Shown here: positions 8,307 to 37,013 of the stretch, in pieces
Layout of the letters: each line of letters starts with the position of its first letter
Position numbering within the stretch: position 1 is the stretch's first letter
Virus record (IMG/VR): IMGVR_UViG_3300010354_011127
Span: 1-56,762 of that record
DNA: 56,762 bases
From: a virus
Reading direction: 5' to 3' (one strand)
Made by a program: the position numbers and the translations under genes
The notes under the pieces: generated by a model
Databases searched by the model: none
Told to the model about the DNA's origin: nothing
What the model saw: the letters and a program-made list of their open reading frames with translations, nothing else

Positions 8307-8799
8307 TATCGGTACTATTTTCAATAACCTTAGTTTGAGCATCGTGTAGCTGTTTCATTGCATGTTGAAATTCTTTTGTGCCATAGTTATGATGGCCTCC
8401 TCCAATTTGCACTCTCATATTAACTTTCTTTTCTAGCGTATAAAGAAATAGCCAATTAAGAACTGTAGAATCTATCTTAGCACCAGCTTCAACCACATCA
8501 ATATAAAGAATATCGTTTATATGTCTAGGAACAATAATAACATTTGATAGAGAAGGCTTCATCCATTCTGGAAAATCTCTTTTAGTATCTATTACCCAAA
8601 CACATTTAAATGTCTGGCAAGGTGAATGAGGCCTATCTTCATAGATAGAGCATCCTTTGCCTAGTAAAGCAAAGTGACAGGGTCTTCCATGCATAAACTG
8701 CTTACCATATGATTGCCCATATAGATAACCTTCACAGCACTTTGTACACCCGTCACAATTACGAACTACTGGGTCAAGTTCGTCTATATCATACATCAT
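8287..8799 (-). CDS. YkgJ-like Cys-rich metal- or Fe-S-binding protein
   Basis: 170 aa. The Cys pattern CDGCTKCCEG (residues 15-24), then CHFALLGKGCSIYEDRP and C..F.C matches the YkgJ family (PF03692), described as a putative zinc- or iron-chelating domain. The characteristic Y-x-x-RP segment before the last Cys pair is present. The reaction is unknown for the family. It overlaps UvsX by 11 bases, so it is part of the replication transcript. Confidence 0.8.
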   Translation of the reverse strand: MMYDIDELDPVVRNCDGCTKCCEGYLYGQSYGKQFMHGRPCHFALLGKGCSIYEDRPHSPCQTFKCVWVIDTKRDFPEWMKPSLSNVIIVPRHINDILYIDVVEAGAKIDSTVLNWLFLYTLEKKVNMRVQIGGGHHNYGTKEFQHAMKQLHDAQTKVIENSTDSVETSS

Positions 8800-9829
8800 C
8801 TTCGTTTGATACTAGCTGTCCAGTTACAAGTGAATACTTATTAGCAATCCATTTAGCAAAGTCAGTTGTTGAAAATAGCTGCTTCCAAACTTCTTTATTG
8901 TCTTCGATATCAGCTGCGCGCATCTTAGGACCAACTTCACCAGTCTCTTTATCGATAACACTATACCATCCATTAGATGGCTTAATAACATACCCACCTT
9001 CAATAGCTAAGTCGAGAAGACCTGACCACTTCTTAATACCGCCTTCATATGATACTGTGATAGGAATCTTTGACTTCTCTTTAACATAACGAGACTTCTC
9101 AACGTTAATGATAAAGTGATAACCATTAATTTCACCGCCATCCTTATCTTGTTGGCGACCGAGAATCCAAATAGTATCAGCTGAGTAATAGATACCCGTA
9201 CCTCCGCCTACAATAGCCTTCGGGTACATACCAATTTCCATATAGGTATGATTGACTACAATAAGAGGAATGTCCTTAAGTGTCAAATGAGGTGTAACCA
9301 TACGGAAAAGAGACTTAAGAGACTTAGCACGAGACATATCCGCAACAGACTTCTCATTGAGAGTATCTTCAACTTCCTTCTTAGATGCTAGGTTACCAAC
9401 AGAGTCAATAACTATAACAACCTTATCATCACGACCAATCTCAGCAAGCTGCTTCATAATATCAAACTTAAGCTGCTCGATATCAGTAATAGGAGTATGA
9501 ATGACACGCTCCATATCAATACCAAACGACTTAAAATATCCTTGAGGAGTACCAAATTCAGAATCGTAAAATAGAAGTACACTATCAGGATATTGCTTCA
9601 TATAAGCACTAGCCATTAAAAGAGAGAAAGCAGATTTAAAATGCTTAGATGGACCCGCAAGAACAGTAAGCCCTGGAGTCAATCCACCATCTACAGTACC
9701 TGATAGTGCTACGTTCACCATAGGAACGTTAGTAATAATCATATCTTTCTTACCATATACTTTAGAGTCTGTAAGCACAGACGTATCTTCAATGGTAGAA
9801 TTCTTAATCAAACGTGCAATGAGCGACAT
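8789..9829 (-). CDS. uvsX: UvsX, RecA-like recombinase
   Basis: 346 aa from ATG at 9829 (AAAGG ribosome-binding site); T4 UvsX has 391. It forms filaments on single-stranded DNA and drives strand exchange for recombination-dependent replication. The Walker A is GPSKHFKS at about 59-66, an unusual form shared by UvsX proteins, followed by a Walker B-like strand (KVVIVIDSVGNLASK) and a RecA loop region with GGGTGIYYSADTIW. The C-terminus is shorter than in T4. It lies between the lipid-remodelling pair and the YkgJ-like gene. Confidence 0.93.
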   Translation of the reverse strand: MSLIARLIKNSTIEDTSVLTDSKVYGKKDMIITNVPMVNVALSGTVDGGLTPGLTVLAGPSKHFKSAFSLLMASAYMKQYPDSVLLFYDSEFGTPQGYFKSFGIDMERVIHTPITDIEQLKFDIMKQLAEIGRDDKVVIVIDSVGNLASKKEVEDTLNEKSVADMSRAKSLKSLFRMVTPHLTLKDIPLIVVNHTYMEIGMYPKAIVGGGTGIYYSADTIWILGRQQDKDGGEINGYHFIINVEKSRYVKEKSKIPITVSYEGGIKKWSGLLDLAIEGGYVIKPSNGWYSVIDKETGEVGPKMRAADIEDNKEVWKQLFSTTDFAKWIANKYSLVTGQLVSNEDDV

Positions 9830-9843
9830 ATTATACCTTTCAA

Positions 9844-10845
9844 TCACTTATCTTTTTCTAAATTGCTTATAAATGTAACCCATGACTGGTGCCATGACCA
9901 TTTATTTAACGCTATTGTACTACATTTTTCTCTTGAAAGCAACATACTTTTTTCTATAGCATGCTCTATATTATTATCCATACAACCTGTAATACCTTCA
10001 TCTATTACATCTATAGGACCCTGAACCGGGTATGCAGCAACAGGAGTGCCACAAAACATTGATTCAAGTAAAACTACTCCAAATGTATCTGATTTACTAG
10101 TAAATACCAAACAGTCTGCAGTTTGATAAAATTGCGCTAGTTCTTCTCCAAACTTATACCCGGGGAAAATTACTTTAGGGTATTTGCGCTGAAGTTCATT
10201 TTTATAAGGCCCGTCTCCTACAACTACTTTTATATACTTGTCTGGAAGACTACAAAATACATCTAAATTTTTTTCTTTAGATATTCTTCCTACAGATACT
10301 AAAAGTGGTATATTTTTAAACTTAGATGTACGAGGCTGAAATATATTTTCATCTGCTCCTCTTGACCAAATTATATGTCTTCTTCCTATTCCATTACTTC
10401 TTAGATAGTCTTCTATTGTTTTTGTAGGACAAAACACTTTTCTTTTATAATGAAACCATTTAATATAAGCTTTAGTAATCCAACTAGGGACACCAGCTAT
10501 ATCTTTCATAAATTTAGACCAGTCAGTATGATATGATGTTGTATATCTTTTATTTCGAAATGTTAATATAAAAGAAGCAGCTAGACCTAAAGGACCCTCT
10601 GTAGCAATATGATATACAGTATTATCTTTGTGTTTTAAAAGTTTATTTAATCCAAGTGGAATAGATAGAGGGATCTCTGGATATGCTTTAACTTTTAAAT
10701 TATATTTAAATAAGCCGGGATGAATAACCTCTACTTGATAACCGTTGAGTCTAGATAGCTCAACCATTTTTTTAAGCGTAGTAACTACACCGCTTACTTG
10801 AGGTTCCCAAGCATCAGTTATTATAACGATTCTTTTAAAGTCCAT
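9844..10845 (-). CDS. GT4 glycosyltransferase, Agt/MgtA-like
   Basis: 333 aa from ATG at 10845 (GGGAG 8 bases upstream). GT-B fold: the N-terminal domain opens with IVIITDAWEPQVSGVVTT, and the C-terminal nucleotide-sugar domain has VSVGRISKEKNLDVF and the E-x7-E type signature FGVVLLESMFCGTP. This matches the GT4 branch of alpha-glycosyl/mannosyl transferases that act on diacylglycerol or similar lipids. It overlaps the 3' end of a PlcP-like phosphoesterase gene by 25 bases. In several alphaproteobacteria a GT4 enzyme of this kind is paired with PlcP and glycosylates the diacylglycerol that PlcP releases under phosphate starvation. Lipid as acceptor is inferred from the pairing. It could instead build a surface glycan. 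Confidence 0.85.
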   Translation of the reverse strand: MDFKRIVIITDAWEPQVSGVVTTLKKMVELSRLNGYQVEVIHPGLFKYNLKVKAYPEIPLSIPLGLNKLLKHKDNTVYHIATEGPLGLAASFILTFRNKRYTTSYHTDWSKFMKDIAGVPSWITKAYIKWFHYKRKVFCPTKTIEDYLRSNGIGRRHIIWSRGADENIFQPRTSKFKNIPLLVSVGRISKEKNLDVFCSLPDKYIKVVVGDGPYKNELQRKYPKVIFPGYKFGEELAQFYQTADCLVFTSKSDTFGVVLLESMFCGTPVAAYPVQGPIDVIDEGITGCMDNNIEHAIEKSMLLSREKCSTIALNKWSWHQSWVTFISNLEKDK

Positions 10846-11582
10846 TTTATAATCTCCCATGAACCATCATCGTTCTCTACTAATGCTGAGCAACTTTCTA
10901 CCCAATCACCGCTATTCATATACATAATGCCATTATTCATTTTACGTATATTTGGATGGTGAATATGCCCACATATTACACCATCTACTTGTTTTGATTG
11001 TGCATATCCAGCTAAATTATCTTCATAATCTGTTATAAAATTTACAGCTTCTTTAACTTTATATTTGGCCCAAGCACTTAACGACCAGTATGGTAAGTTA
11101 AAAATGTTTCTTATTTTAGTTACTATTAAATTTAACATCATAGAAAAATCGTAAGCCCATGAACCTAGATAAGCTAACCATCTTATATTATTGACAACTG
11201 CATCAAACTGATCACCATGCATTACAATGTATGTTTTACCATCTAAACCTTTATGAATAACTTTATCCTGAAGTTTAATATTACCGAATTCATGCTCACC
11301 AAACGATCTAAGAAACTCATCATGGTTACCTGGAAGATAAATTACTTCAGTGTCTTTACGAGCCTTTCTCATCAATTTTTGGATTACATCATTATGTTGT
11401 TGAGGCCAATAAAATGATCTATGAAGTGCCCATCCATCTATAATATCACCTACTAAATAAAGCTTTTCACATTCAACATATTTAATAAAATCTAAAAACG
11501 CCTCAGCCTGACTCATTCTAGATCCTAGATGAATATCTGAAACAAAAATTGATTTATAATGTTTTGTTCTTTTTTCTATCAT
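10821..11582 (-). CDS. PlcP-like metallophosphoesterase
   Basis: 253 aa calcineurin-like phosphoesterase. Metal ligands are visible in order: DIHLG (16-20), GDIIDGW (45-51), GNHDEF (85-90), HGDQFD (122-127) and GHIHHP (205-210). Sequence between motifs (WALHRSFYWPQQHNDVIQKL, and YWSLSAWAKYKVKEAVNFI) looks much more like the alphaproteobacterial PlcP/UDP-diacylglucosamine-pyrophosphatase-like branch than like Mre11 or LpxH. PlcP cleaves phospholipid head groups to diacylglycerol during phosphate limitation. Its start overlaps the stop of the upstream small gene (ATGA). A nuclease or LpxH-like role cannot be excluded by sequence alone. Confidence 0.82.
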   Translation of the reverse strand: MIEKRTKHYKSIFVSDIHLGSRMSQAEAFLDFIKYVECEKLYLVGDIIDGWALHRSFYWPQQHNDVIQKLMRKARKDTEVIYLPGNHDEFLRSFGEHEFGNIKLQDKVIHKGLDGKTYIVMHGDQFDAVVNNIRWLAYLGSWAYDFSMMLNLIVTKIRNIFNLPYWSLSAWAKYKVKEAVNFITDYEDNLAGYAQSKQVDGVICGHIHHPNIRKMNNGIMYMNSGDWVESCSALVENDDGSWEIIKWTLKESL

Positions 11583-11845
11583 TGATTTAAAACTGAATCT
11601 AGTTTTTTGATAAAGTCATTTATTTTATTTTCTCTATCAGGCCATACTATATTCGGTTTATCAGGATTTTTTTTTAAATTATTAAGCAGAGGCATAATCA
11701 TCTTATACATCGTGACAGCTTTATTTTGTGCGACTATTGCTTGGTTTTCTTTTTCTGAAACTGCTTCAGTTAAATCATCTGTAAAGCCAAAACCAAAGTC
11801 AAAATCCATATCAACATCGATAGGTATTACTTTTTTATCTACCAT
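11579..11845 (-). CDS. Conserved T4-like phage protein (88 aa)
   Basis: 88 aa with an acidic aromatic start (PIDVDMDFDFGFGFTDDL) and a C-terminal helix (MIMPLLNNLKKNPDKPNIVW, then PDRENKINDFIKKLDSVL). The same two features occur together in a short protein of T4-like cyanophages next to replication genes, as far as I recall. Function unknown. It sits directly downstream of DNA polymerase, 11 bases from its stop. Confidence 0.78.
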   Translation of the reverse strand: MVDKKVIPIDVDMDFDFGFGFTDDLTEAVSEKENQAIVAQNKAVTMYKMIMPLLNNLKKNPDKPNIVWPDRENKINDFIKKLDSVLNQ

Positions 11846-11856
11846 TTGTTCTCTTT

Positions 11857-14379
11857 CTATGAAAAGAAACTATCAAGTGATGCTTTTTTCTCAACCTGCC
11901 AGCCGATAGCATCAAGGATAGTTTTAATTGGTTCAACGAATGCTTTCTCATATTGAGTATCATAATCAATATATTGATCCATACCTAATTGTCTAGGTAG
12001 TGTGCCTGGACAAGCAAATACATTTTCACGTGTAGGATTAGGCAATTTCATATAACAAAATTTAATCTTATCGCCTTCTTGAATAGACTGAAAACGTGTA
12101 TTAAGCTTTTTCTGCTTAAGTACCCAGTTATAAAGCAAAGCACCTCTAACGTGAATAGGGGTAGCCTTCTTATAGATAGTATTTAGATCTGAATAGTCAC
12201 TCAAACCTTTGCAACCTCTAGGAAACGCAACCTCTTCAAACGGAAGCTGTTTAAACTCACCACGAAACCTCTCAATAAACTTGATAGTTTCTTCTTCAGT
12301 CTCATTCATAATAATCTTAATACACTTCTTAATGTTATCACGGCAAGATGCTGGTGTAGATGAACGAACTGCTTCGATACCCATCATCTTAAGCTTAGGT
12401 TCATTATATTGAACACCCTCGTTATTCCATACGTTAAGAATGTATCGCTTCTTAGCAGTCCATATACCTTTATTAGCGATAGCTTCTCGCTTCATCTTCA
12501 TCTTTTGTTGATACGCATTAACATATTCGCTAAGCTGTCCGTAACACGACTCAATAAAAGGTTCCAAGCGATGTTCACATGCGTGGTCCAAGACTTTGAC
12601 CACCTTTCCAATTTCATCGCTCTCACTAAAGCATTGGTCGACCAGACGCTCAAGCGTAATGTACATAGAGTCAGTATCACATGCAATGACATAGTCTATA
12701 TCTTTCGTTTTAAATAGCTTATTCAAATATTTATTCATCTCTCTTTCAATCCATTTAATAGAGAGCTGACCTGATAGAGTAATAGACTCTGCAAGTTTAT
12801 TATCAAACCAACGGAAATAAGCATTAGACAAAGCACCATATGCTGAGTTAAGTTGGATTTTTTTTGCTAACTGCATATTATGGTTTTGCGCGATAGCCTT
12901 CTCAGTCTCAGGAGTAGGATTCTTTTCGTGAGATTGCTTTGCTTCAATCATTCGCTTCTTATATACTACTCGATCATCATACATCTTCTGCATAAGCTTA
13001 GGTAAGAAGCCTTGATAATCTTTATCAAACATACATCCAGATGCAGCACACGTAACGTTCTGACTAGTAAGCTGATTACGCACTGAAGGTTCGTTTAGAT
13101 AACCGTCAAGTATTTTCTTTACACCCTCATCTCCGTTAATAGATGAGATATGTCCTACATATGTCTCAGGTGAGATGTTATACTGCATAATGAGATGAGG
13201 GTATAGAGAGTTCAAGTCGAATGATACAACCCATTTATGCATACCCACTTGAGGGTCTTTAACATAAGCACCGATAATCTGACGCTCTTTCTCAGTTATT
13301 TTAAGCTGAGGTACCACGATGTTCTGACTAAGTAGATAGTTATGAATAATCACATCCCACATACGCACTGATGTAAAAGTATCTTGATAGTTAACCTTAC
13401 CGTCATACGCGATAGCAAATACCTGATCAATTAGCTTAAGCTTATCATCTAGACGGTCTACTAGATCAACGTCCTTAATGTTATACTCAATAAAGAGTTG
13501 GTAGTTCTTCTTATAAAGATCAAACAAACTCTCGTACTCAGAGTAATCGAGCTTGCGTTCACCAAGCTCAATGTTAGCGATATGATCGAGACGATACGAC
13601 TCTTGCATAGTAAAGGTAAACTTACGATACATCTGCATATAGTCTAGAAGAGATATACCAGTAGGAACGTATACTTGATTATCACGTCCAGCAATAGTAA
13701 CTGTACGCTCTTCTAGTATACCCCAGGGTGAAAGCTTCTTAGCCATACTATCACCTAGTATGCGCTTAATACGGTTAACAATATAAGGAATATCGAAGAA
13801 CTCAATGTTCCATCCCGTAACAATATCAGGAGAGAACCACTTAGAACACCAAACATCAAGAAACTTAGTAAGAAGCTCTTCTTCGTTCTTACATTTAATA
13901 TATTTTACTTTAGGGTTATCAGTAACAAACTCACCACAGCCTAGAACGATATACATATCATTCTTCTTCATAGTGATAGCTGTAATCTCTTTATCAGCTG
14001 TTTGAATGTCAGGGAAGCCTTGATCGGCTGCCACTTCGATATCGATATTTACTTTCGATACCAGCTTAGGATCATAATCGATCTCACCTTTGTAGTAATC
14101 GTTGATAAAAGGATATACAAAGTTGTTAAAGCCATATATCTCAAAGCCTTCAACTTCGTTATAACGCTTAATAAAGTCTCGTGCTTCAGATGGAGAATCG
14201 AAATCAATCCTATCTACAAGCTTGCCTTTAAGGTTACGGTAGACTCCATCACTCTTCTTAGAGTGAATAAACAGATAGGGCTTGCAAGGAATATTGAGCT
14301 GAATACGCTCACCATTCTCATACCCTCTAAGAAGAATATCACCACGATACAGTGAGACGTTCGTGTAAAACTTACTCAT
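11857..14379 (-). CDS. 43: Family B DNA polymerase (gp43)
   Basis: 840 aa; T4 gp43 is 898. It synthesises phage DNA and proofreads. Exonuclease motif I is NIDIEVA with D113 and E115; Exo II is near NIEFFDIPY (191-199). Polymerase motif A is SFDLNSLYP with D388, motif B is KKIQLNSAYG (about 506-515), and motif C is ACDTDS with D568 and D570. All catalytic acids are present. It works with the clamp (53954-54631) and the clamp loader (51973-53327), which lie 38 kb away. Confidence 0.97.
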   Translation of the reverse strand: MSKFYTNVSLYRGDILLRGYENGERIQLNIPCKPYLFIHSKKSDGVYRNLKGKLVDRIDFDSPSEARDFIKRYNEVEGFEIYGFNNFVYPFINDYYKGEIDYDPKLVSKVNIDIEVAADQGFPDIQTADKEITAITMKKNDMYIVLGCGEFVTDNPKVKYIKCKNEEELLTKFLDVWCSKWFSPDIVTGWNIEFFDIPYIVNRIKRILGDSMAKKLSPWGILEERTVTIAGRDNQVYVPTGISLLDYMQMYRKFTFTMQESYRLDHIANIELGERKLDYSEYESLFDLYKKNYQLFIEYNIKDVDLVDRLDDKLKLIDQVFAIAYDGKVNYQDTFTSVRMWDVIIHNYLLSQNIVVPQLKITEKERQIIGAYVKDPQVGMHKWVVSFDLNSLYPHLIMQYNISPETYVGHISSINGDEGVKKILDGYLNEPSVRNQLTSQNVTCAASGCMFDKDYQGFLPKLMQKMYDDRVVYKKRMIEAKQSHEKNPTPETEKAIAQNHNMQLAKKIQLNSAYGALSNAYFRWFDNKLAESITLSGQLSIKWIEREMNKYLNKLFKTKDIDYVIACDTDSMYITLERLVDQCFSESDEIGKVVKVLDHACEHRLEPFIESCYGQLSEYVNAYQQKMKMKREAIANKGIWTAKKRYILNVWNNEGVQYNEPKLKMMGIEAVRSSTPASCRDNIKKCIKIIMNETEEETIKFIERFRGEFKQLPFEEVAFPRGCKGLSDYSDLNTIYKKATPIHVRGALLYNWVLKQKKLNTRFQSIQEGDKIKFCYMKLPNPTRENVFACPGTLPRQLGMDQYIDYDTQYEKAFVEPIKTILDAIGWQVEKKASLDSFFS

Positions 14380-14662: not shown

Positions 14663-14690
14663 AAAGAGAAGAGGGGGAATTCCCCCTCTT
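14663..14690 (-). terminator. Rho-independent terminator
   Basis: A 22-base perfect palindrome (14669-14690) with a 9-bp stem AAGAGGGGG and an AATT loop. Read leftward it is followed by the pyrimidine-rich tail CTCTTTTAT. It begins immediately after the stop of the DUF3563-like gene, so it ends the transcript of the small host-like genes. Confidence 0.7.
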
Positions 14691-14882
14691 TTAATGTTTT
14701 GTTCTAGTAACACCTGTAACTAGTAAATAGTACGGGTTGTAATGTATGTGATGTTGTTTAAACCATTCTCTTTCGAGATGTTCAAAGTGCTCACGACTAG
14801 TTGCTTGACCTAGATAATCGTTCATACGTTCTTCGTATGATCTTGGTGCTAGCTTTTTTAAAAGAGACTTAATAAACTTCAT
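14691..14882 (-). CDS. DUF3563-like small protein (63 aa)
   Basis: 63 aa. The core (RSYEERMNDYLGQATSREHF, then EHLEREW) fits DUF3563, a short alpha- and betaproteobacterial family whose function is unknown. It overlaps the 18-aa ORF upstream (ATGA). It belongs with the DUF1127 gene at 15150-15314 as a host-type small protein carried by the phage. Confidence in the family is moderate because it is short. Confidence 0.7.
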   Translation of the reverse strand: MKFIKSLLKKLAPRSYEERMNDYLGQATSREHFEHLEREWFKQHHIHYNPYYLLVTGVTRTKH

Positions 14883-15928: not shown

Positions 15929-16660
15929 TTATTTCTCAATGTCTGCTATTTGTATTTTGGTTTGGTGATTATGAATAGGACATTTAGCTCCGTCAGGATA
16001 TTTACCTTGAAAATAATGCTTTTGCCAAACACTTCCATCAATAGTTTTATTGCGTTTTCCTTCATTAAATTCTGCTCTACTAGCAGAGAATAAATCGTGA
16101 TAGTTTTTATACTCTAAATTAGATTGTAACATTTCATGTTCTATATAAAAGGTGTCTATACTTCCTCTTTCGATAGGAAAAAAGAAACAAAACGGCTCAT
16201 CTTGCTCAAATATAATTTCTCTATTAGGTTCTGTAATTTGCCAGTTCATAGTAAATGAATAAGGAGCCCAATCGGATTCGTATATACCTGTTAAAGGTGT
16301 GATACCCTCTTTAGGATAATTAGGTGCTCCTGTAATGTATAAATTATAATTCTCAGGAGTCTTAATAAGATGCTCTAAATGAAACGTGATTATACCATGA
16401 CCGAAAACAGAAGCACAATTTTTATTATTAGAGCTCTTTACTATAACATCTTCAATATAGGGGCCTCCTTTCCATATAAAAGATGCTCTATCTTTAAGAT
16501 GTACAGACCATCCGTGCTGATTAGCTATTGTAAGAGGTAAACACCTATATGCATGATTATCTTTAGTATTATCCATCCAAACTCTGTTACGAACGCCTGG
16601 TTTTATTACAACATTTGTATGTTCGTAAATTTGATATATTTTTATTGCTTTACTTGACAT
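15929..16660 (-). CDS. DUF6065-like protein (243 aa)
   Basis: 243 aa. The pattern RCLPLTIANQHGWSVHL near residue 40 and the CPIHNHQTK close to the C-terminus match what I recall of DUF6065, an uncharacterised family of bacteria and marine phages. The His/Cys tail (C-P-I-H-N-H) could bind metal. Function unknown. The gene diverges from the IscA-type gene at 16714, leaving 53 bases between them. Confidence 0.7.
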   Translation of the reverse strand: MSSKAIKIYQIYEHTNVVIKPGVRNRVWMDNTKDNHAYRCLPLTIANQHGWSVHLKDRASFIWKGGPYIEDVIVKSSNNKNCASVFGHGIITFHLEHLIKTPENYNLYITGAPNYPKEGITPLTGIYESDWAPYSFTMNWQITEPNREIIFEQDEPFCFFFPIERGSIDTFYIEHEMLQSNLEYKNYHDLFSASRAEFNEGKRNKTIDGSVWQKHYFQGKYPDGAKCPIHNHQTKIQIADIEK

Positions 16661-18101: not shown

Positions 18102-18926
18102 TTACTTTGATGTAGCTCTATAAACTCCATCAAAATCTTTTGGAGGATTAGATTCAATTCGCTCGAGCATCATGTCATAATAGTGCTCGAGTTTTTTATT
18201 GAAACAAAGTTTTAAATCGGCTATATCTTTACGAGCAGCAGCCCAGTTACCTTTATAATAATTTTCTAAAAATCTTTTATGTATTACTAGGTGACTATTA
18301 GCCCAATCAACAGAGTTAATAATTGTAAAGATTTTAACGCCTTCTTTTTTACCTTTAACTGCAATACAATCTAACTCAATAACTCTATAATGTTTTCTTA
18401 CTTGTTCAGCTGTATCAGGTCCAAGTATGATCTGTACACCATAGTTTTTAGATTGTCCTTCCAGTCTGGATGCGAGGTTAACACTATCGCCCAAACATGT
18501 ATAATCAAAACGCTGAGAAGAACCCATATTACCAACAACGACGGTTCCTGTATTAATTCCGAGACCCATACCAAAGGGCGGAACACCTTCTTGAGCAACC
18601 TCTTTATTAAATTCATCTAACTTATCCAGCATTTTAACTGCAGCGGTAACTGCATGTTTAGCATGATCCGGATCATCAAGAGGTGCATTCCAAAAAGCCA
18701 TCTGGGCATCACCAATATATTTGTCCAGCGTTCCTTTTTCTTCTAGAATAGATTGAGTCATTGCAGTCATATATCTATTCATTATCTTAGTAAGACCTTG
18801 TACATCTTTACCGTAGTGTTCTGATATTGCTGTAAACCCTCTAACGTCAGTAAACATAATAGAAAGCTCTCTTGACTCCCCTCCAAGCTTAAGCAAATCA
18901 GGGTTCTTCTGTAGCTTCTCTACCAT
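18102..18926 (-). CDS. Class III adenylate/guanylate cyclase domain (3' part of split gene)
   Basis: 274 aa as an open frame from ATG at 18926. It carries the class III cyclase core: metal-binding IMFTDVRGFTAISE at residues 24-37, GDAQMAFWNAP near 69 and GLGINTGTVVVGNMGSSQR about 123-141, with DYTCLGDSVNLASRLE following. The same frame continues upstream, with no other stop, for 42 codons to a TGA at 19053-19055 and then into a CHASE2 sensor gene. The ATG at 18926 has no ribosome-binding site, and starting there would remove the third membrane segment. So this is best seen as the output domain of one CHASE2-cyclase gene (18102-20132). Product would be cAMP or cGMP. Confidence 0.88.
   Translation of the reverse strand: MVEKLQKNPDLLKLGGESRELSIMFTDVRGFTAISEHYGKDVQGLTKIMNRYMTAMTQSILEEKGTLDKYIGDAQMAFWNAPLDDPDHAKHAVTAAVKMLDKLDEFNKEVAQEGVPPFGMGLGINTGTVVVGNMGSSQRFDYTCLGDSVNLASRLEGQSKNYGVQIILGPDTAEQVRKHYRVIELDCIAVKGKKEGVKIFTIINSVDWANSHLVIHKRFLENYYKGNWAAARKDIADLKLCFNKKLEHYYDMMLERIESNPPKDFDGVYRATSK
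18162..18197 (+). terminator. Rho-independent terminator inside the opposite gene
   Basis: CTCGAGCA (18162-18169) and TGCTCGAG (18184-18191) form an 8-bp stem with a 14-nt loop, followed rightward by six T's (18192-18197). It lies within the C-terminal coding part of the leftward cyclase gene and would end the rightward 16714-18101 transcript. The long loop lowers confidence. Confidence 0.5.
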
Positions 18927-19052
18927 GTCAGGAGATAGATATGTACCAAATTGTTTCTTAATTTGAAGCTTCTGTAGGTATTCTCTAACAAGGCTATTTG
19001 ATATTATTAGTCCATATATAAGAGTTGATGATATTACTATAAATGAACTATC

Positions 19053-19055
19053 TCA
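19053..19055 (-). other. In-frame TGA splitting the CHASE2-cyclase gene
   Basis: The frame reads ...DIRNEL, TGA, DSSFIVISS... with no shift on either side. In related proteins this position after the second membrane segment is commonly Trp, so a TGG-to-TGA change of one base would explain it. TGA is an ordinary stop for other genes in this window, which argues against code reassignment. Options: nonsense mutation, stop read-through, or an assembly error. Confidence 0.8.
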
Positions 19056-20132
19056 TAGCTCGTTTCTTATATCAAAAATATAAAATGGTGCATAACTTAT
19101 TCCGCCTACTAAAGCAACAAACACAGGTACTGTTAATTTAACTGGAAGCTTAGGAACAGTTAGAATTATTATTAAACCAATTACTAATAGAGAAGCTATT
19201 TCTATCATATTAGCAAATGAATAACGAATAGGTGAAGATCCTGAGAATATAGTATAAAGTGTTTGTGCTTGAACTTCATGAGAGAATTTTTCACCATTAG
19301 GAGTAGCTAACACTGACGCAACCCCTGAAGCAGATACACCTACAATAACTAGTTTGTCTTGCACATCTTCTTGTTTAACATCTAAAAAATCTATATGTTT
19401 AAAAACAGTAGAAGAGTCAATCCAGACGCGACCGTTAGCATCAGTAGTAATTGTATTAAACTGTGGGATACGTACAGCTTCAATACCAGACTCTCCAGTT
19501 TTAATTTGGAACGACGGGTCATTAGTTAATACTCTTATAATTTCTAAAGGTAAAGAAGGATATAATTTACCATCTATATTAACAACCATAGGCATTCTAC
19601 GAACAACACCATCAACTTCTGGTGTAGAAGCTATGACACCTACACCAGAAGCTTTATTAGCTAATATAGGTAGTGGACTAACAGCACCAGGCCACATATA
19701 TGCCCAAGGAAGAGGGTCTTGTCCTACAGCTGAAAAGCCTCTTCTAACTGCGTCTGGTTTATCTGCTTTATTAGAAGGGACTTGAGCTATTACTGTACCC
19801 CCTGAAGCTAATTTATCAGCAAACTCTTTATCGCCTCCTGATCTATCTGGTTCAGAAAATAAAACTGGGAATACTATAGCGCCTGCTTGCCAGTATCTTA
19901 ACAGCTCTACAAATCTAGCTAGTTCTTGTCTAGGAAGAGGCCATTGACCTAGTTTATCTAAAGTTTTATCTGAAATTTCAACTACAACAATTTCAGTTAC
20001 TTCTTGTTTTTCTTTTGTGTTTAAAATAAAATCTATAAACTTTAGCTCTAATACTTGTAGAGGGTATGGATTCCAAACTTTAACAGTTATTAGAGATAAT
20101 AAAAGTGTGACTGCTATTATAAAATTTTTCAT
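19053..20132 (-). CDS. CHASE2 sensor domain protein (5' part of split CHASE2-cyclase gene)
   Basis: 359 aa ending at TGA. An N-terminal membrane anchor (FIIAVTLLLSLITV) is followed by a periplasmic CHASE2 domain (residues about 25-290, with DKTLDKLGQWPLPRQELARF and VGVIASTPEVDGVVRRMPMV) and two transmembrane segments (about 300-355). CHASE2-adenylate cyclases have three such segments before the catalytic domain; here the stop falls between the second and third. Reading through it gives a 676-aa protein of normal architecture. The FecR-domain gene nearby is a frequent neighbour of CHASE2 cyclases. Confidence 0.88.
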   Translation of the reverse strand: MKNFIIAVTLLLSLITVKVWNPYPLQVLELKFIDFILNTKEKQEVTEIVVVEISDKTLDKLGQWPLPRQELARFVELLRYWQAGAIVFPVLFSEPDRSGGDKEFADKLASGGTVIAQVPSNKADKPDAVRRGFSAVGQDPLPWAYMWPGAVSPLPILANKASGVGVIASTPEVDGVVRRMPMVVNIDGKLYPSLPLEIIRVLTNDPSFQIKTGESGIEAVRIPQFNTITTDANGRVWIDSSTVFKHIDFLDVKQEDVQDKLVIVGVSASGVASVLATPNGEKFSHEVQAQTLYTIFSGSSPIRYSFANMIEIASLLVIGLIIILTVPKLPVKLTVPVFVALVGGISYAPFYIFDIRNEL

Positions 20133-20134
20133 GA

Positions 20135-20473
20135 TTAATACTGATAAACCGAGAAAGGCTCAGGAGAGCAAGATGAAAGGGTGCAGGTTTGTGATACAGA
20201 TAGGAATTGATCAAGAGGACTTACTTGAAATATAGAAATTTCATAGTCTTTAAATTCACCATTTAAATCAAAATCTAGATAGTGATTACCTCCGGATTGT
20301 ACTACTGTATATGTATTATTGTTATTAGTAGAATTGTTAGCAGTAAAATTTAAGTTACTGTTTCCTAACTGCGTAAAAGACATAACATTATTATATCCGG
20401 ATACATCTAAAATTGCACTTCCAGCATAGCAAGGTGTTGATAAAAGCAATAATGCTATAATATACTTGAACAT
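20135..20473 (-). CDS. Curlin-like secreted protein (112 aa)
   Basis: 112 aa with a signal peptide (MFKYIIALLLLSTPCYAG). The mature part contains Asn/Gln-rich strands (SFTQLGNSNLNFTANNS, and YTVVQSGGNHYLDFDLNGE) like degenerate curlin repeats, then a C-terminal tail with two Cys residues (QTCTLSSCSPEP). It could be a minor curli subunit or nucleator, in the role of CsgB. It starts 8 bases from the stop of the FecR-domain gene and ends 3 bases before the CHASE2 gene. Confidence 0.65.
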   Translation of the reverse strand: MFKYIIALLLLSTPCYAGSAILDVSGYNNVMSFTQLGNSNLNFTANNSTNNNNTYTVVQSGGNHYLDFDLNGEFKDYEISIFQVSPLDQFLSVSQTCTLSSCSPEPFSVYQY

Positions 20474-20480
20474 TTTAGAC

Positions 20481-21575
20481 CTATAATGATTGGTTAATGT
20501 ATATTGTAGTTGTACCAGGGCTGTTTATTATTTGTTTTATATTAATATTATCTTGAGTCAATTCATATGTTAAACTTGAAGTAGTAGAAACATTTATTTC
20601 TGCATAATGATTTACATTTTGTCTGTACAACATTACGCTATCATTTTCAACAATATAATTTAGATCAGTATTCTTATCATATTTAGGTAAAAGTGAATTA
20701 TATTCTACTAATTCACTTTGAAGAAATTGACTGGTTTGAATAGATAATGCATCTTCAAATACATTAACGTCAAGAAAATTAATACTTAATCTATCGGTTA
20801 CTAAATAGTCAGTTTCTAATTCTTTATACTCTAAAAAATCTATTGACAGAAGATCTGTATCTAAAGCAGTCTTTGAATCTTCCTTAGTAACTTCTACTTT
20901 TTTCAAACCTTTAGGAGGTGATACAATTAACATATTGTTAATTTGATTTAAACTCAAATCAAGAATTGCAGATTTGCTAGGATTAGCTTCTCTCGATTCT
21001 ACCGAAGTGGACTCAAATGGTTTAGTAAGCCAAATTTCTCCAGCATCTGTAGATACTACAATACTCCCTACAGTACAGTCTTTGTCTAAATTTTTCCAAC
21101 CTGCAGGACAAGAAGGAAGAAGAACGATAGTTGATCTTCCTAATTCGTCAACAGTAGAAGAAAAATCAGTTCCTCTTACACCAATAGTAGCAGTAGGTGT
21201 TTCAACTGCTACTTGTTGCGGGTTATGTTTAGCTATTTGTCCGGAAGTATACTTTACAGTACCTAAAGCGATCTTAATAGCTAATTTACCAGTATTTTTA
21301 TTAGGATCATAAACAAACGTATCAATAACTAGTTTAGATTGCTCAGTTATATGCACTTGTGTCTGATCTTCAAATGTAATTCCAGCAACAGCATTAGCAG
21401 TAGTGATGGTGTCATCCATCTCTACTGCTGAATTAATAGCTGAAGGAACTACTTCTTTATTTCTTTTAATCTCTGTAGGACCAGATTGTTCTGTTATTGT
21501 TCCTACAGATGAAGCGTTAGTAGTTACTGTTGATATTAATATTGTTATCAGAACCAGTAATAGTCGCATTAACAT
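20481..21575 (-). CDS. FecR-domain secreted protein
   Basis: 364 aa with a signal peptide (MRLLLVLITILISTVTTNA). Residues about 45-150 form a FecR domain (DDTITTANAVAGITFEDQTQ; GTVKYTSGQIAKHNPQQVAV; ETPTATIGVRGTDFSS). The remaining 200 residues are beta-rich with no named domain. In bacteria FecR-domain proteins often stand next to CHASE2-cyclase genes, as here. The role may be periplasmic sensing or assembly of the extracellular fibre. It overlaps the curlin gene by up to 59 bases. Confidence 0.85.
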   Translation of the reverse strand: MLMRLLLVLITILISTVTTNASSVGTITEQSGPTEIKRNKEVVPSAINSAVEMDDTITTANAVAGITFEDQTQVHITEQSKLVIDTFVYDPNKNTGKLAIKIALGTVKYTSGQIAKHNPQQVAVETPTATIGVRGTDFSSTVDELGRSTIVLLPSCPAGWKNLDKDCTVGSIVVSTDAGEIWLTKPFESTSVESREANPSKSAILDLSLNQINNMLIVSPPKGLKKVEVTKEDSKTALDTDLLSIDFLEYKELETDYLVTDRLSINFLDVNVFEDALSIQTSQFLQSELVEYNSLLPKYDKNTDLNYIVENDSVMLYRQNVNHYAEINVSTTSSLTYELTQDNINIKQIINSPGTTTIYINQSL

Positions 21576-22191
21576 AGCTGTCTACATTTCCCCCCTGTTC
21601 AATAACAGCAGTATTTGTAGCACCTACTACATTAAGAATAACGTTATGACCATTAGGTCCTGCTGCCCCAGTTTGATTTAACGTAATGTTATTTCCATTA
21701 CCACCGGAAATAGAAATGTCACTTGATGCTCCAGAAATAGCTGAAGAATCATTGTTAATACTTACTGTATTGTTATCTGACTGGATATCAACAGTTGATG
21801 TTCCACTAGCAGAGTCAATTATTCTTGATAACTCGTTACCGCTTCCTGTAATGGTATCAGTTATGACTACCATGGAACAAGTAGCGCAGAGTAAGCTCAA
21901 GTCGTTACTGTCTCCAGTAATTGTTTGAGTTACTTCATTACCATCACCTTCAATATTCATATCAAGAATATTTGAGTTACCAATTTGATCTATTGTTATT
22001 AAATTACTATTACCATCTATGATGGCTCTACTATTTGCACTTCCAATTTCGTTGCTGTTACCTGTCTGAGTAATAGAAATAGTTGAAGTGTCGCCAATTT
22101 GGTCTATATAGATACTATTTCCTGCTGCATTAGCAACGTTTACCATAATCAAGAATGACAAAAAGGTTGCCAGTCTTGCTAGGAGTTTCAT
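21517..22191 (-). CDS. Curlin-repeat fibre subunit (CsgA/CsgB-like)
   Basis: 224 aa with a 22-residue signal peptide (ends NVANA). The mature protein is made of curlin-type strands with Gln/Asn and Gly: IYIDQIGDTSTISITQTGNS, and NLITIDQIGNSNILDMNIEG; also a Cys pair (LLCATCS) near residue 100. Curlin subunits are secreted through CsgG and form amyloid fibres. Directly downstream of CsgG (10 bases). The regular repeat shape X-x-x-Q-x-G-x-x-N is clear in at least five units. Confidence 0.85.
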   Translation of the reverse strand: MKLLARLATFLSFLIMVNVANAAGNSIYIDQIGDTSTISITQTGNSNEIGSANSRAIIDGNSNLITIDQIGNSNILDMNIEGDGNEVTQTITGDSNDLSLLCATCSMVVITDTITGSGNELSRIIDSASGTSTVDIQSDNNTVSINNDSSAISGASSDISISGGNGNNITLNQTGAAGPNGHNVILNVVGATNTAVIEQGGNVDSYVNATITGSDNNININSNY

Positions 22192-22201
22192 TTTTCCCTC
22201 G

Positions 22202-23053
22202 TTAATTTACCTTTTTTACATTAGGAAGAGTTGAGGGGCTCACAGTTGATTTTTCTTTATACTGCCATAGATCTCTCTTTACACCATCTTTAACCATCTC
22301 TGCAACTGCTTGTTCAATTGCAATACGAACTGCATATGTAGTAGGTTCATTGATGCTATAACCTGCTTCAAATTCTACTGACACAGTGCCTTGATCAACA
22401 AACTTTAACATGTTTCCATCTGCGGATGTGCTAACTACTGATTTAGTTACACCTGATGAAAGTAATACTTCGCCTGTACTAATAGAAATCAGTCTTAATA
22501 TAACTGTGACCTCATCTCTTCTATACATCTTGTCGGCGCCAATACCTAAAACTCTAGCACCTATACCCCCAGTTGTGATATTACTATCATAACCGACTAT
22601 ACCGCCCTCAATCATTACACCAGCTACTACTAAAGGAGGAAGCTTTTGCGCATCTTCTCCTTCGTAGGTCTCTCGCTGGCTTCTTATTAGTTGTCTCTCT
22701 TTAACTAAGTTATCGATACCAACTCTTTCAACTACTTTAAACCATTTGCCACCACCAGCATCTTGTAAAGCTTTAATTAAAAATACTTCTGATCCTTGAG
22801 TAACCGCTGTACTTAAACTAGCATATTCTGCTGATTTTCTCTGACCTGTAAGATCGGAAAATTTATATACAGCTATAGGAACAGGTGGCCCTGCTGGTTC
22901 TTTTAAATAGATTAATTCATTATATCTTTTTTTAGTAGCAACTGGAAGCATTTTTTCTGCTGGTTCTGAGACCGGCTTTCCAAATTCTTTATTAGTTGCT
23001 GTACACCCTGCTAAAACTAATCCTAGTAGAGCTATTGTAATATATTTTACCAT
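22202..23053 (-). CDS. csgG: CsgG-like curli secretion channel
   Basis: 283 aa; E. coli CsgG has 277. A lipoprotein signal ends in LVLAGC with C17 as the lipidation site. The family core follows: IAVYKFSDLTGQRKSAEYAS, then KWFKVVERVGIDNLVKERQL and the IEGGIVGYDSNITTGGIGAR strand pattern, all typical of CsgG. It forms an outer-membrane nonameric channel for curlin export. In a phage it would act in the infected host. The gene overlaps the CsgF gene by 7 bases. Confidence 0.93.
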   Translation of the reverse strand: MVKYITIALLGLVLAGCTATNKEFGKPVSEPAEKMLPVATKKRYNELIYLKEPAGPPVPIAVYKFSDLTGQRKSAEYASLSTAVTQGSEVFLIKALQDAGGGKWFKVVERVGIDNLVKERQLIRSQRETYEGEDAQKLPPLVVAGVMIEGGIVGYDSNITTGGIGARVLGIGADKMYRRDEVTVILRLISISTGEVLLSSGVTKSVVSTSADGNMLKFVDQGTVSVEFEAGYSINEPTTYAVRIAIEQAVAEMVKDGVKRDLWQYKEKSTVSPSTLPNVKKVN

Positions 23054-24679: not shown

Positions 24680-25468
24680 TTAACCTCTTACTAATTTATT
24701 AACGATATGAGCCCACTCTGCATAACTATTATGGACATCTGCGTTAATCATCGATTGTGCCATTGCAGATGTATCTTTTGGAAAACAAGACCCACCATAA
24801 CCATACTCTCCATCAGGCCCAGGCTGCATCCAATGACTGTAACCTAGTCTAGGTTCCTTAGAAAGCATATCAGCTACATTGTTGTAGTCACATCCAAGAG
24901 CATCCACATACTTTTTAAGATTGTAGGCTTGAATAGTTCTAGCGGCAAGCAAAGAATTGATAGCAAGTTTAACAATACATGCTTCAACAGGGCTGAAAAG
25001 AACGTTTTTAATTTTAAACTTATCGTTAAACTCAAGATTTAAATTAATAGAATTTGCTCCTCCTGCAATACTAAAAACAGGATTAACAGCATCTTCTTCC
25101 CATGAAGCTTTACGAAGAAGTTCTGGCCATACAGTGATGAAAGGATCTTTATCTAAATAATTTTGAATTGTTTGCGGTTCAAGTGTGCTTCGAATAACTG
25201 TATCACCCCTAAACCAGTTAGATCGAGCTAGATCTATTGCGCTATCAACTATCGAACTATCATACTGAGAAACAGAAGACTGATCAGAAGAAGGAGTAGG
25301 CACACACACTAGATGCCACCCTGCCTTACTCCATACATCTTTATCTACAATTAAGTTCTTAGGGGGGTCATTAATAAAGATGTTATCAGCACTGATACCT
25401 GCATGAAGCAAAGTTTTATTAGTAGCCTGACCAACATACCCAAAGCCAGAAATTACAAAAATAGTCAT
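24680..25468 (-). CDS. Nucleotide-sugar 6-dehydrogenase-like protein, short form
   Basis: 262 aa of the UDP-glucose/GDP-mannose dehydrogenase family; full enzymes have about 390-440. The Rossmann motif GFGYVG is at 8-13, VPTPS at 56-60 and the substrate-binding VEACIVKLAINSLLAARTI at about 161-179. The catalytic Cys is C228 in YGYGGSCFPKD. The C-terminal UDP-binding domain is missing. It may act on a different substrate or as a dimer with another fold. Such short forms occur in marine phages. It precedes the tRNA genes. Confidence 0.82.
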   Translation of the reverse strand: MTIFVISGFGYVGQATNKTLLHAGISADNIFINDPPKNLIVDKDVWSKAGWHLVCVPTPSSDQSSVSQYDSSIVDSAIDLARSNWFRGDTVIRSTLEPQTIQNYLDKDPFITVWPELLRKASWEEDAVNPVFSIAGGANSINLNLEFNDKFKIKNVLFSPVEACIVKLAINSLLAARTIQAYNLKKYVDALGCDYNNVADMLSKEPRLGYSHWMQPGPDGEYGYGGSCFPKDTSAMAQSMINADVHNSYAEWAHIVNKLVRG

Positions 25469-31149: not shown

Positions 31150-31684
31150 TTTAATAAAGTTTATTAACAATAATAAAATATCATTAGGTATTGCTAGTAC
31201 AAAAACTGAACTAAGAATAGTTGATAAAAATATAGGTCATGGAAGATTTGCTTTAGAGGATATACATCAAGATGAAGCTGTTTATCGTATAGGAGGAATT
31301 TGGTTATCTCATGATGAACGTCAAGAGTTTAAAGAAGATTATTTCCATTTAATAGACAAGCTATATTTTTTTCAAGGGGGGCTATCTCCTGATTTAAACG
31401 GTTCACATAATCATAGTTGTGAGCCTAATTGTTATTTAGAAGATAATACAATTAGAGCAATAAAGGACATAAAAAAAGATGAGCATCTAACAGTAGACTA
31501 CTCATCTTTCATTAATCATAATTATGTGATATTAAATAAATGTGGGTGCGGTTCACCTAATTGTAGAGAAGTTGTTACTGGTTTAGATTGGCTTATATAT
31601 GATCTTCCAAGTAAATATAATTTTAAAGTTAGTAGTGAGATACTGAGACACTATTTAAATATTCAAAAAGAGAAGCATAGTTAG
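31136..31684 (+). CDS. SET-domain methyltransferase
   Basis: 182 aa. SET signatures are clear: IGHGRFALEDI at about 33-43, NHSCEPNC at 92-99 and HLTVDY at 117-122, then a post-SET-like CGCGSPNC at 136-143. SET enzymes transfer methyl groups from SAM to lysine side chains. This one may target a cluster protein, ribosomal protein or host chromatin protein. Its 3' end overlaps the convergent aminotransferase gene by 56 bases. Confidence 0.9.
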   Translation: MNKIDLIKFINNNKISLGIASTKTELRIVDKNIGHGRFALEDIHQDEAVYRIGGIWLSHDERQEFKEDYFHLIDKLYFFQGGLSPDLNGSHNHSCEPNCYLEDNTIRAIKDIKKDEHLTVDYSSFINHNYVILNKCGCGSPNCREVVTGLDWLIYDLPSKYNFKVSSEILRHYLNIQKEKHS

Positions 31685-32696
31685 AAGCTGTACTAGTAAA
31701 CATAGGGCATACAATAATTGTATTAATATAGTTACGTACTAGATAGTTAAGCTTTTTTGCTTCTTTACGAGCTTCTGGACCATCCTTAACATCAATACCA
31801 ATAGCTAGTCCGTATTGTCTAGTATTAACTTTTAAGTATTTGTCAAACCCTTTAGCAGTCTTGCTAACAGGGTATTTTTTATATAACTCTAAAACCTTTA
31901 AAAGTGCAGCGCATGCCAGCGGATGTCCTGAAGTTGTATAGCCATAATTAAACACCTCATTAGTTTTATAGATTTGATCTGCTACTTCTTCACTAACCAT
32001 TGTAGCTGATAACGGAAACATACCATTAGTAAGACCTTTGCTAGCAATAAGAATATCTGGTTTAAAGTTTCTTAAAGCATAAGCAAGATCACCTCCTCGT
32101 CCTAATGCAGTAACTGTCTCATCATAAGCAATTAAAAATCCATACTTACGTTTTAATTCAAATGCATAATTAATAGTCTCCCAGCTAGTTTCATGCACAC
32201 CTGAATTAACTTTAAGAGGCTCTATAACTAAAAGAGCTGTATTATGATCTATATCACCAAGATTTAATTTATTATTAACGAAATTAAGCTTTGTAGCACC
32301 GTGATAGCTATTAGTTAAAGTAACTAAATTAGTTTTTCTACCATTAAAACAAAACCTTGCAATATAACTAGCTGTATCTATAGCATCTGAACCGCTATTA
32401 CCAAAATAAACTTTACTATAGCCAAACAGCTTGGTTATTTCATCAGCTGCTTTTTCGGTAACGTCAGCATAGGACCAAAAATGGTTAGGGTAGAAGTGTA
32501 ACTTCTCCATTTGTTCGACGACTGCATCTTGAATTTCTTTGTTGCAATAACCATAATTTACATTCCATAATCCACTAGTTGCATCGAAATAAGATTTACC
32601 TTCACTATCTACTATTATATCACCATACCCTTTTTTAAATTCTACAGGGGTATTAAATTTATAATGATTGGTATAGCTTAGTATTTGCTTAGACAT
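31629..32696 (-). CDS. Class III PLP aminotransferase
   Basis: 355 aa, shorter than the usual 420-450. PLP fold: FGNSGSDAIDTAS (98-110), AYDETVTALGRGG with D192, and the Schiff-base lysine K220 in ILIASKGLTNG. Family members use a side-chain amine donor on substrates such as glutamate semialdehyde, diaminopelargonate or amino sugars. The N-terminal pyridoxal-binding part seems complete, the C-terminus short. It follows radical-SAM protein E, with start overlap. Confidence 0.9.
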   Translation of the reverse strand: MSKQILSYTNHYKFNTPVEFKKGYGDIIVDSEGKSYFDATSGLWNVNYGYCNKEIQDAVVEQMEKLHFYPNHFWSYADVTEKAADEITKLFGYSKVYFGNSGSDAIDTASYIARFCFNGRKTNLVTLTNSYHGATKLNFVNNKLNLGDIDHNTALLVIEPLKVNSGVHETSWETINYAFELKRKYGFLIAYDETVTALGRGGDLAYALRNFKPDILIASKGLTNGMFPLSATMVSEEVADQIYKTNEVFNYGYTTSGHPLACAALLKVLELYKKYPVSKTAKGFDKYLKVNTRQYGLAIGIDVKDGPEARKEAKKLNYLVRNYINTIIVCPMFTSTASNYASLFEYLNSVSVSHY

Positions 32697-35996: not shown

Positions 35997-36432
35997 CTAT
36001 TTTATAAATTGCATAACAATTTTTTGCACTAGTTTCTGTTTCGAAAAAATCACTTGCTCTATCAAAGCCTGCTTTATAGTATGCATATAAAGAAGTGTCT
36101 CTAGGAACTGTCCATACAATAGAGCAATCTTCTTCTTTTGCTTGGTTAATAGTAGCTTCTAAAAGTTTAACTGCAACACCTCTGTTTCTAAATTCAGGTA
36201 ATACAAAAAGACCTCTTGATCTATAATCAGTATCGCTTGTTTTATGGCCGCTATTGACTCCTATAATGTTACCATCTATACTATACCCAAAATAAGTAGG
36301 TTTATATTTTTTATAGATTGATATATCATACCCTTTAGGAAATAGCATAGAGCTCATAAGAGGTATTTGTCTTCCTGGCCACAATTGCTGCCAAAAAGGT
36401 ATAATATTTAATTCATCAATAATTTCAATCAT
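35989..36432 (-). CDS. GNAT-family N-acetyltransferase
   Basis: 147 aa, standard size. The acetyl-CoA loop is in LFVLPEFRNRGVAVKLLEAT, with the R/Q-x-x-G-x-A pattern read as RNRGVA. Then IVWTVPRDTSLYAYYKAGF follows the usual C-terminal strand and helix. Acetylates an amine, on an unknown acceptor, perhaps the amine made by one of the aminotransferases. Coupled to both neighbours by short overlaps. Confidence 0.88.
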   Translation of the reverse strand: MIEIIDELNIIPFWQQLWPGRQIPLMSSMLFPKGYDISIYKKYKPTYFGYSIDGNIIGVNSGHKTSDTDYRSRGLFVLPEFRNRGVAVKLLEATINQAKEEDCSIVWTVPRDTSLYAYYKAGFDRASDFFETETSAKNCYAIYKIDG

Positions 36433-37013
36433 TTATCTACACAGAATACTAAGTGAGTTCTATCTTTCTTGCCTGCATTAACTGCTGTATGAGGTAATAA
36501 TGTGTTAGCAATATAAGCTTTACCAAAAGGAAAGCGATATATTTGATCGTCAATAACCATAAAGCTATCAGGGTTAGTTATAATAGGTATATGAAGTCTA
36601 GGTGTCTCATCTACATGCATTGATAGACAGGTTTTATATTTCATCATCATAAACCTACCTCTATAAGCCCCATATTGTTGTTTTACTTTTTCTACAACAT
36701 GCCCAATATAGTTGCCCTTAAATATATCACAAGTTACATCAAATAATTTTTCACTTAAAACTACATCTCTCTTAGGAGGCTCACTATGAATTTTAGAATC
36801 AAAATTATCCCAATCATATATTAAACTATTACAAGATTCTGTAATCTGTCTAATACCATCTGCTTCTTGACGGCACTGAACTGCAATTTGTCTAGCATGT
36901 TTTTCTAGTAAACTATTCATAGAGTATTCTGTACTGTATGTTACTCTAAAATTATTAAACGCTTCAAGAAGCATATCATAGTCTATATCTAAATCAATCT
37001 CTTTTACGTGCAT
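36429..37013 (-). CDS. Aspartyl/asparaginyl beta-hydroxylase-like oxygenase
   Basis: 194 aa. The Fe(II) triad is seen in H133-x-D135 (CLSMHVDETPRLHIPI) and H175 (LLPHTAVNAG), with R185 (KKDRTHLVF) as the 2-oxoglutarate partner. Order and spacing match the Asp/Asn beta-hydroxylase (PF05118) branch. It would hydroxylate an unactivated carbon using Fe(II), oxygen and 2-oxoglutarate. The start abuts the radical-SAM gene upstream (shared base). Confidence 0.85.
   Translation of the reverse strand: MHVKEIDLDIDYDMLLEAFNNFRVTYSTEYSMNSLLEKHARQIAVQCRQEADGIRQITESCNSLIYDWDNFDSKIHSEPPKRDVVLSEKLFDVTCDIFKGNYIGHVVEKVKQQYGAYRGRFMMMKYKTCLSMHVDETPRLHIPIITNPDSFMVIDDQIYRFPFGKAYIANTLLPHTAVNAGKKDRTHLVFCVDK

Follow-up and report, generated by a model that had tools for sequence, protein, structure and literature searches.

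Gene organization of the locus

The window analysed here, i.e. a 56,762-nucleotide (56.8 kb) stretch of viral DNA covering positions 1 to 56,762 of IMG/VR record IMGVR_UViG_3300010354_011127, carries a gene for a calcineurin-like phosphoesterase followed by one for a GT4 glycosyltransferase, both lying between the genes for a family-B DNA polymerase and the recombinase UvsX (Table 1). A preliminary description made from the letters had noted the 25-base overlap of the two genes and their polymerase and UvsX flanks, both of which stand, but had missed a small ORF between the polymerase and the phosphoesterase, a 52%-identical relative of which is present in locus L015, again between PolB and UvsX. 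The longest possible GT4 reading frame runs from 9844 to 10860 (338 aa), with an alternative ATG at 10845 (MDFKRIV...); we placed the start at 10845 because a Shine–Dalgarno-like sequence precedes it by 8 bases and because it aligns with the starts of related proteins, and it is this choice that gives the 25-base overlap.

Table 1. Genes and sequence features of the polymerase-to-UvsX region (window positions)
Feature	Position	Strand	Basis
UvsX recombinase, downstream; 4-base overlap with GT4 stop	8789..9847	-	E=4.6e-87
Agt/GTcp-type GT4 (predicted diacylglycerol glycosyltransferase), 333 aa	9844..10845	-	ORF list, Pfam, tree, residues
Phosphoesterase/GT4 reading-frame overlap, 25 bases	10821..10845	-	sequence
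Shine–Dalgarno-like GGGAG, 8 bases 5' of GT4 ATG at 10845	10854..10858	-	sequence
PlcP-type calcineurin-like phosphoesterase (predicted phospholipase C), 253 aa	10821..11582	-	ORF list, motifs, Pfam, tree
88-aa ORF between PolB and PlcP; 4-base overlap with PlcP start	11579..11845	-	ORF list
Family-B DNA polymerase (T4/cyanophage-like), upstream in packed run	11857..14379	-	PHROG DNA polymerase, E=0

All genes from the polymerase to UvsX lie on one strand, with no more than about 11 bases between neighbours or with overlaps of 4–25 bases, and this tight packing makes it likely that they share a single early transcript. The polymerase is closest to that of cyanophage S-RIM8 (52%), which is too distant for a host to be named. 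Between positions 8000 and 15400 a promoter scan returned fewer promoter-like sites than the shuffled mean, and a terminator scan returned 12 terminator-like sites compared with 2.8, mostly one hairpin near 14.67–14.69 kb counted in both orientations; neither scan is informative about the phosphoesterase–GT4 pair. A perfect strong hairpin, AGAAGAGGGGGAATTCCCCCTCTT, terminator-like both ways, is located at 14667-14692, just upstream of the polymerase gene.

The phosphoesterase is assigned to the PlcP type

The phosphoesterase matches the Pfam family Metallophos (E=4.9e-12) and, as had been claimed from the sequence, contains every calcineurin-type motif (SDIHLG, GDIIDG, GNHDE, MHGD and GHIHH), with complete metal motifs at D16-H18, D46, N86-H87-D88, H122 and H206-H208; residues D16, H18, D46, N86, H87, H122, H206 and H208 are invariant among 28 aligned proteins. 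Its best 80 bacterial relatives in a genome scan are all proteobacterial, with 51–59% identity over nearly the full length, and nearly all are named Alphaproteobacteria (Rhizobium, Agrobacterium, Bradyrhizobium, Mesorhizobium and Roseibium).

In a maximum-likelihood tree of 94 proteins (73 on the PlcP side and 21 LpxH), the LpxH proteins, set off by a very long branch, formed one group with 100/100 support. The window protein fell on the PlcP side, inside a viral clade of six that is starred in the tree. Position 87 separates the same two sets, being His (GNHD) in all viral and bacterial PlcP proteins and Arg (GNRD) in all 21 LpxH. Among 299 Pseudomonadota genomes the window phosphoesterase matched PlcP genes at 1e-48 to 1e-101, but separate genes in the LpxH range at only about 1e-8 to 1e-10. 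Several genomes have PlcP and LpxH as distinct genes (G014, G022, G061, G065, G069, G101 and G137 among others), and in genomes such as these the window protein matches PlcP at 1e-52 to 1e-83 and LpxH at about 1e-10 at best. It had been proposed that grouping with LpxH or with nucleases would speak against a lipid-remodelling role; the 100/100 split, the separate genes and the lack of any better nuclease match place the protein elsewhere, as a PlcP-type enzyme of the COG2908 kind rather than LpxH and a predicted phospholipase C.

The glycosyltransferase is assigned to the Agt/GTcp type

The GT4 protein matches the Pfam family Glycos_transf_1 (E=1.2e-20), and it is confidently predicted to adopt a GT-B fold (mean pLDDT 90.9), which on fold comparison resembles BshA/MshA/PimB-type GT-B enzymes, a similarity at superfamily level that does not decide the subfamily. 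In seven alphaproteobacterial genomes its best matches lie at 1e-63 to 1e-72 and ordinary GT4s at 1e-11 or weaker, so that the genome-best match is ahead of other GT4s by over 40 orders of magnitude; in one alphaproteobacterial genome a second Agt-like gene scores 6e-52. The best-scoring bacterial GT4 gene is often found directly 3' of plcP. A tree of 84 proteins united the viral, plcP-adjacent and genome-best GT4s in one clade (63 rows, 95/98 support), within which the viral proteins occupy branches of their own. Second-tier GT4s and the Escherichia coli proteins WaaG, WaaB, WcaC, WcaI and WcaL, the latter on very long branches, fell outside this clade, so the grouping with O-antigen enzymes that had been named as a refuting outcome was not seen.

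Mutagenesis of the SAR11 enzyme GTcp has shown that G16, G82, G85, H104, R163, R190, K195, D256, T257, F258, G259, E264 and W320 are needed, that D256 is irreplaceable by Glu (D256E loses >90% of activity) and that, in a docked model, H104, R163 and W320 contact diacylglycerol (Wei et al., PMC8231724). All 13 of these residues have a counterpart in the window protein (G19, G84, G87, H106, R162, R187, K192, D253, T254, F255, G256, E261 and W318), matched by motif and order against the published numbering rather than by a letter-by-letter alignment with GTcp. The unusual catalytic Asp (window position 253) is kept in 24 of 26 viral and 35 of 37 bacterial relatives, and 14 of 16 other GT4s have Glu in its place. 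The reference proteins SMc00171, Atu2297 and GTcp were compared via named relatives and published residue numbers, and Roseibium (formerly Labrenzia, among the genera of the published clade) was represented by L151. Taken on scores, tree and residues, the window GT4 is of the Agt/GTcp type and a predicted diacylglycerol glycosyltransferase.

Alternative assignments of the two enzymes

Automatic family names would suggest quite different functions. The best NCBIfam match of the phosphoesterase is LpxH (56 bits), the best PHROG match is a ‘DNA repair exonuclease’ family (45 bits) and the nearest solved fold is again LpxH (TM 0.5–0.6, 17–22% identity), from which one might read the protein as a UDP-2,3-diacylglucosamine hydrolase of lipid A synthesis or as a nuclease. 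However, against the curated LpxH models it reaches only 56 of the 134 bits and 46 of the 190 bits required, and since no PlcP structure was present among its PDB matches, LpxH is the nearest solved relative by default; the fold fixes the superfamily without settling the subfamily. Together with the tree, the Arg that LpxH has in place of His87 and the separate LpxH gene in genomes that hold PlcP, these scores led us to reject both names, and we regard an LpxH or nuclease function as extremely improbable. The name ‘lipopolysaccharide transferase’ for the GT4 was likewise rejected on score, tree and residues. A GT4 acting on some target other than diacylglycerol, such as phage DNA bases, lipopolysaccharide or O-antigen, with its adjacency to PlcP incidental, has in its favour the great diversity of the GT4 family, the presence in the window of a short UDP-glucose-dehydrogenase-like gene and the fact that T4-like phages carry DNA glucosyltransferases close to their replication genes. 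These T4 enzymes, however, belong to other GT families, and clade, essential residues and gene pairing all indicate Agt: Trp318 and Arg162, the equivalents of which are reported diacylglycerol contacts in GTcp, are kept, and the E. coli lipopolysaccharide and colanic-acid GT4s lie outside the clade. Such a target is accordingly very unlikely, and we proceed with the PlcP and Agt/GTcp assignments.

Distribution of the pair among viruses

Scanning viral sequences with the GT4 as seed yielded 73 loci, which were pooled with ten PlcP-seeded loci; PlcP lay upstream of the GT4 in 70 of the 78 GT4-bearing loci, with the two genes overlapping in 50. Because the same order recurs across tens of viral contigs, the pairing is no accident. 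As seeding on the GT4 could inflate the pairing count, a further scan was started from PlcP alone and matched at least 577 viral stretches. Among the 77 distinct best loci examined, an Agt-like GT4 was found just downstream of PlcP in 36 and was absent from 37, the other four ending too early (36/73), and because about half of these viral PlcP loci lack an adjacent Agt-like GT4 the pair is not obligatory. In some of these 37, such as L370, L377 and L384, the place of the GT4 is taken by a GT2-family glycosyltransferase (Pfam Glycos_transf_2) of about 236 aa that overlaps PlcP. The glycosyltransferase partner of PlcP thus seems to be interchangeable, as in the several bacterial plcP arrangements reported previously (Sebastian et al., PMC4796936). 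A GT2-family glycosyltransferase also overlaps or abuts the viral PlcP in L379 and L386, and in two viral contigs (L329/L330) a 356-aa ORF with no Pfam match lies directly 3' of PlcP. In L385 (3778-6065), a contig classed as viral that may be host DNA, the genes after PlcP encode a PstS-type binding protein and a putative porin.

Viral copies occur mainly within replication and nucleotide-reductase blocks, with NrdB, NrdA, ThyX, RuvC, SegE and PolB as recurrent neighbours; none of these six was found in bacterial plcP loci searched identically.

PlcP and GT4 identities co-vary among 24 viral pairs (r=0.72), a value reached in none of 2000 permutations, and the window is an outlier to this relationship. 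Its PlcP is nearest to those of L002/L003/L018/L019 (62–69%), but its GT4 is nearest to those of L012/L015 (70–71%), the PlcP proteins of which are just 52% identical with that of the window. On these mismatched relatives, the simplest reading is at least one exchange of partners between phages, which would suggest that the two genes are selected as a functional unit and not passively co-inherited.

Comparison with the bacterial plcP–agt operon

For bacteria, Sebastian et al. (PMC4796936) reported that plcP most often has an agt homologue as its neighbour, that a plcP mutant of Phaeobacter is complemented by the SAR11 PlcP and that E. coli with the SAR11 Agt produces MGDG and GADG. In the 299 Pseudomonadota genomes we found the GT4 in 84, PlcP in 92 and both in 77, compared with 26 expected if they were independent; 61 adjacent same-strand plcP–GT4 pairs were present, in 59 of these genomes, and in 36 bacterial loci, too, the GT4 immediately followed plcP on the same strand. 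The comparison with PlcP and Agt drawn in the preliminary description was well chosen, as the gene pair is that of the known bacterial operon (PMC4796936). Compared with the alphaproteobacterial systems (PlcP SMc00171/PB7211_983, Agt Atu2297 and GTcp PB7211_960), the viral genes belong to the same families in the same order (PMC4796936; PMC8231724), share their tight spacing or overlap and have the same essential GT4 residues.

There are nevertheless clear differences. The viral pair is flanked by DNA polymerase and UvsX or embedded in groups of nucleotide-reductase genes, whereas the bacterial loci are chromosomal and Pho-regulated, and the viral GT4s, on their own branches, are only 34–41% identical with plcP-adjacent bacterial GT4s. 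In addition, a Pho-box scan of the window showed no enrichment (12 loose matches compared with 14 expected) and found no Pho box for the pair, although such a box is a trait of the bacterial regulon rather than of the PlcP enzyme. With these differences in mind, the window genes are best explained as a phage version of plcP–agt, the operon with which bacteria remodel their lipids under phosphate stress.

PlcP-type genes in isolated phages and the name ‘lpxH’

Homologous PlcP-type phosphoesterases are encoded by two isolated T4-like phages, Pelagibacter phage Mosig EXVC030M (QOI69083.1; 46% identical) and Synechococcus phage S-SRM01 (QPX48289.1; 34% identical, on a long, uncertain branch), although both genes are annotated as the LpxH-type ‘UDP-2,3-diacylglucosamine hydrolase’. 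No Agt-like GT4 was found in the examined surroundings of either gene; in Mosig, a SAR11 phage, PlcP adjoins a PstS-type gene. Genes named ‘lpxH’ have also been reported from surface viromes of the Eastern Mediterranean (PMC10653327) and among viral transcripts of Lake Baikal (PMC9611531), and ‘LpxH’ together with a glycosyltransferase from phosphate islands of HIMB59 bacteria (PMC10734472). We hypothesize that these may be misnamed PlcP, and the name ‘lpxH’ on viral genes calls for a fresh look.

Both enzymes and their operon are already known in bacteria, as are phage phosphate genes as a kind, but in the open-licence literature we found no report of a viral plcP–agt pair.

Proposed function of the pair

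Given the assignment of both proteins to their families by tree and residues, and the order and placement of their genes, it is very likely that the pair performs lipid-remodelling chemistry. We infer the activities of these particular proteins, the timing of their expression and any benefit in phosphorus from sequence, and propose the following scheme. The pair would be co-expressed with DNA polymerase and UvsX early in infection, when PlcP would cut host phosphatidylethanolamine (PE), phosphatidylglycerol (PG) and phosphatidylcholine (PC) at the glycerol–phosphate bond to give diacylglycerol and a phosphorylated head group. The GT4 would then add glucose, galactose or glucuronic acid from a UDP-sugar to the diacylglycerol, and the resulting phosphorus-free glycolipid would refill the membrane and keep toxic diacylglycerol from accumulating. 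The preliminary description suggested that the phage may free phosphate from host membrane lipids, which needs correcting: PlcP yields phosphorylated head groups and diacylglycerol, and free phosphate requires a further phosphatase. Host enzymes (phosphatases or glycerophosphate use) would have to convert the head groups into usable phosphate, and part of the membrane phosphorus might in this way become a source for phage DNA, with the membrane intact until lysis.

Whether this chemistry serves phosphorus supply is a separate question. The placement of the pair with polymerase, UvsX and nucleotide-reductase genes suggests that the pair acts early and in connection with DNA synthesis, and hence in phosphorus supply, a purpose that we consider about evenly balanced. 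The same enzymes and the same chemistry would also serve if host lipids were remodelled for the sake of the membrane itself, a change in surface charge or curvature blocking superinfection or rival phages, conferring resistance to membrane-targeting defences or setting the timing of lysis. Aminolipid composition has been linked with phage attachment in Ruegeria (PMC9938194), and phages are known to change the membrane lipids of their hosts (PMC12282109). The lack of the Agt-like GT4 at about half of the viral PlcP loci also fits such a purpose, as does the GT2 enzyme overlapping PlcP at some of them, since the head group made may then matter. In contrast, the genes that recur nearby are those for ribonucleotide reductase, thymidylate synthase and polymerase rather than lysis or receptor genes, and PstS-type genes lie beside PlcP in Mosig and L385. 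On this evidence a purpose in the membrane itself, the main rival reading, seems rather unlikely. Phosphorus supply, for its part, would bring a different benefit in a glycolipid-rich cyanobacterial host.

Phage DNA is rich in phosphorus, which raises the question of its source where water is poor in phosphate. The phosphate genes known from phages work on uptake; the pair described here would tap the membrane, a large bacterial store of phosphorus. The cyanophage auxiliary genes pstS, phoA and phoH share with the pair a proposed purpose, phosphorus for phage DNA, but take up or release external phosphate, whereas PlcP and GT4 would exploit the membrane of the host cell itself. The lipid desaturases of cyanophages (Roitman et al. 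2018, cited in PMC12282109) are another case of phage genes directed at the membrane lipids of the host, but they alter fatty-acid unsaturation, in contrast with head group and phosphorus content in the case of PlcP and GT4. The presence of the same pair in many related viruses suggests that phages may mine the host membrane for phosphorus. If the pair does tap membrane phosphorus, the lipid change in infected cells should be detectable by lipidomics as mono-glycosyl or glucuronosyl diacylglycerol, and glycolipids measured in low-phosphate waters may stem in part from infected cells. A broader reading, to which we give slightly less than even weight, is that many aquatic T4-like phages carry a mobile, exchangeable module of PlcP and an interchangeable head-group glycosyltransferase (Agt-like GT4, or GT2 in some) that during infection turns host membrane phospholipid into phosphorus of phage DNA, and that the ‘lpxH’ of surface viromes is largely PlcP.

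Other genes in the window

At 24680-25468 the window encodes a UDP-glucose-dehydrogenase-like protein of 262 aa with the motifs GYVG and GGSCFPKD, which apparently lacks the UDP-binding domain at its C terminus. An active enzyme could provide UDP-glucuronate, one of the Agt/GTcp donors.

A phage sensor-cyclase and curli-export set lies side by side at 18102-23053, consisting of a cyclase catalytic domain (18102-18926), CHASE2 (19053-20132), FecR (20481-21575), a curlin-repeat protein (21517-22191) and CsgG (22202-23053). A fused CHASE2–cyclase of 676 aa is encoded shortly downstream of PlcP in viral locus L318. Upstream of the polymerase, at 15929-16660, there is a DUF6065 protein (Pfam 4e-77).

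Finally, about a dozen radical-SAM proteins, several with SPASM domains, form a nearly unbroken run at 28863-51587 in low-GC DNA (26–34%) between replication genes, which is very unusual for a phage. Within this run are a class-III aminotransferase (31629-32696), an Asp/Arg hydroxylase (36429-37013), a QueC-like protein (40623-41291) and a methyltransferase-like protein (44260-44784), and the whole looks like a peptide- or small-molecule-modification cluster.
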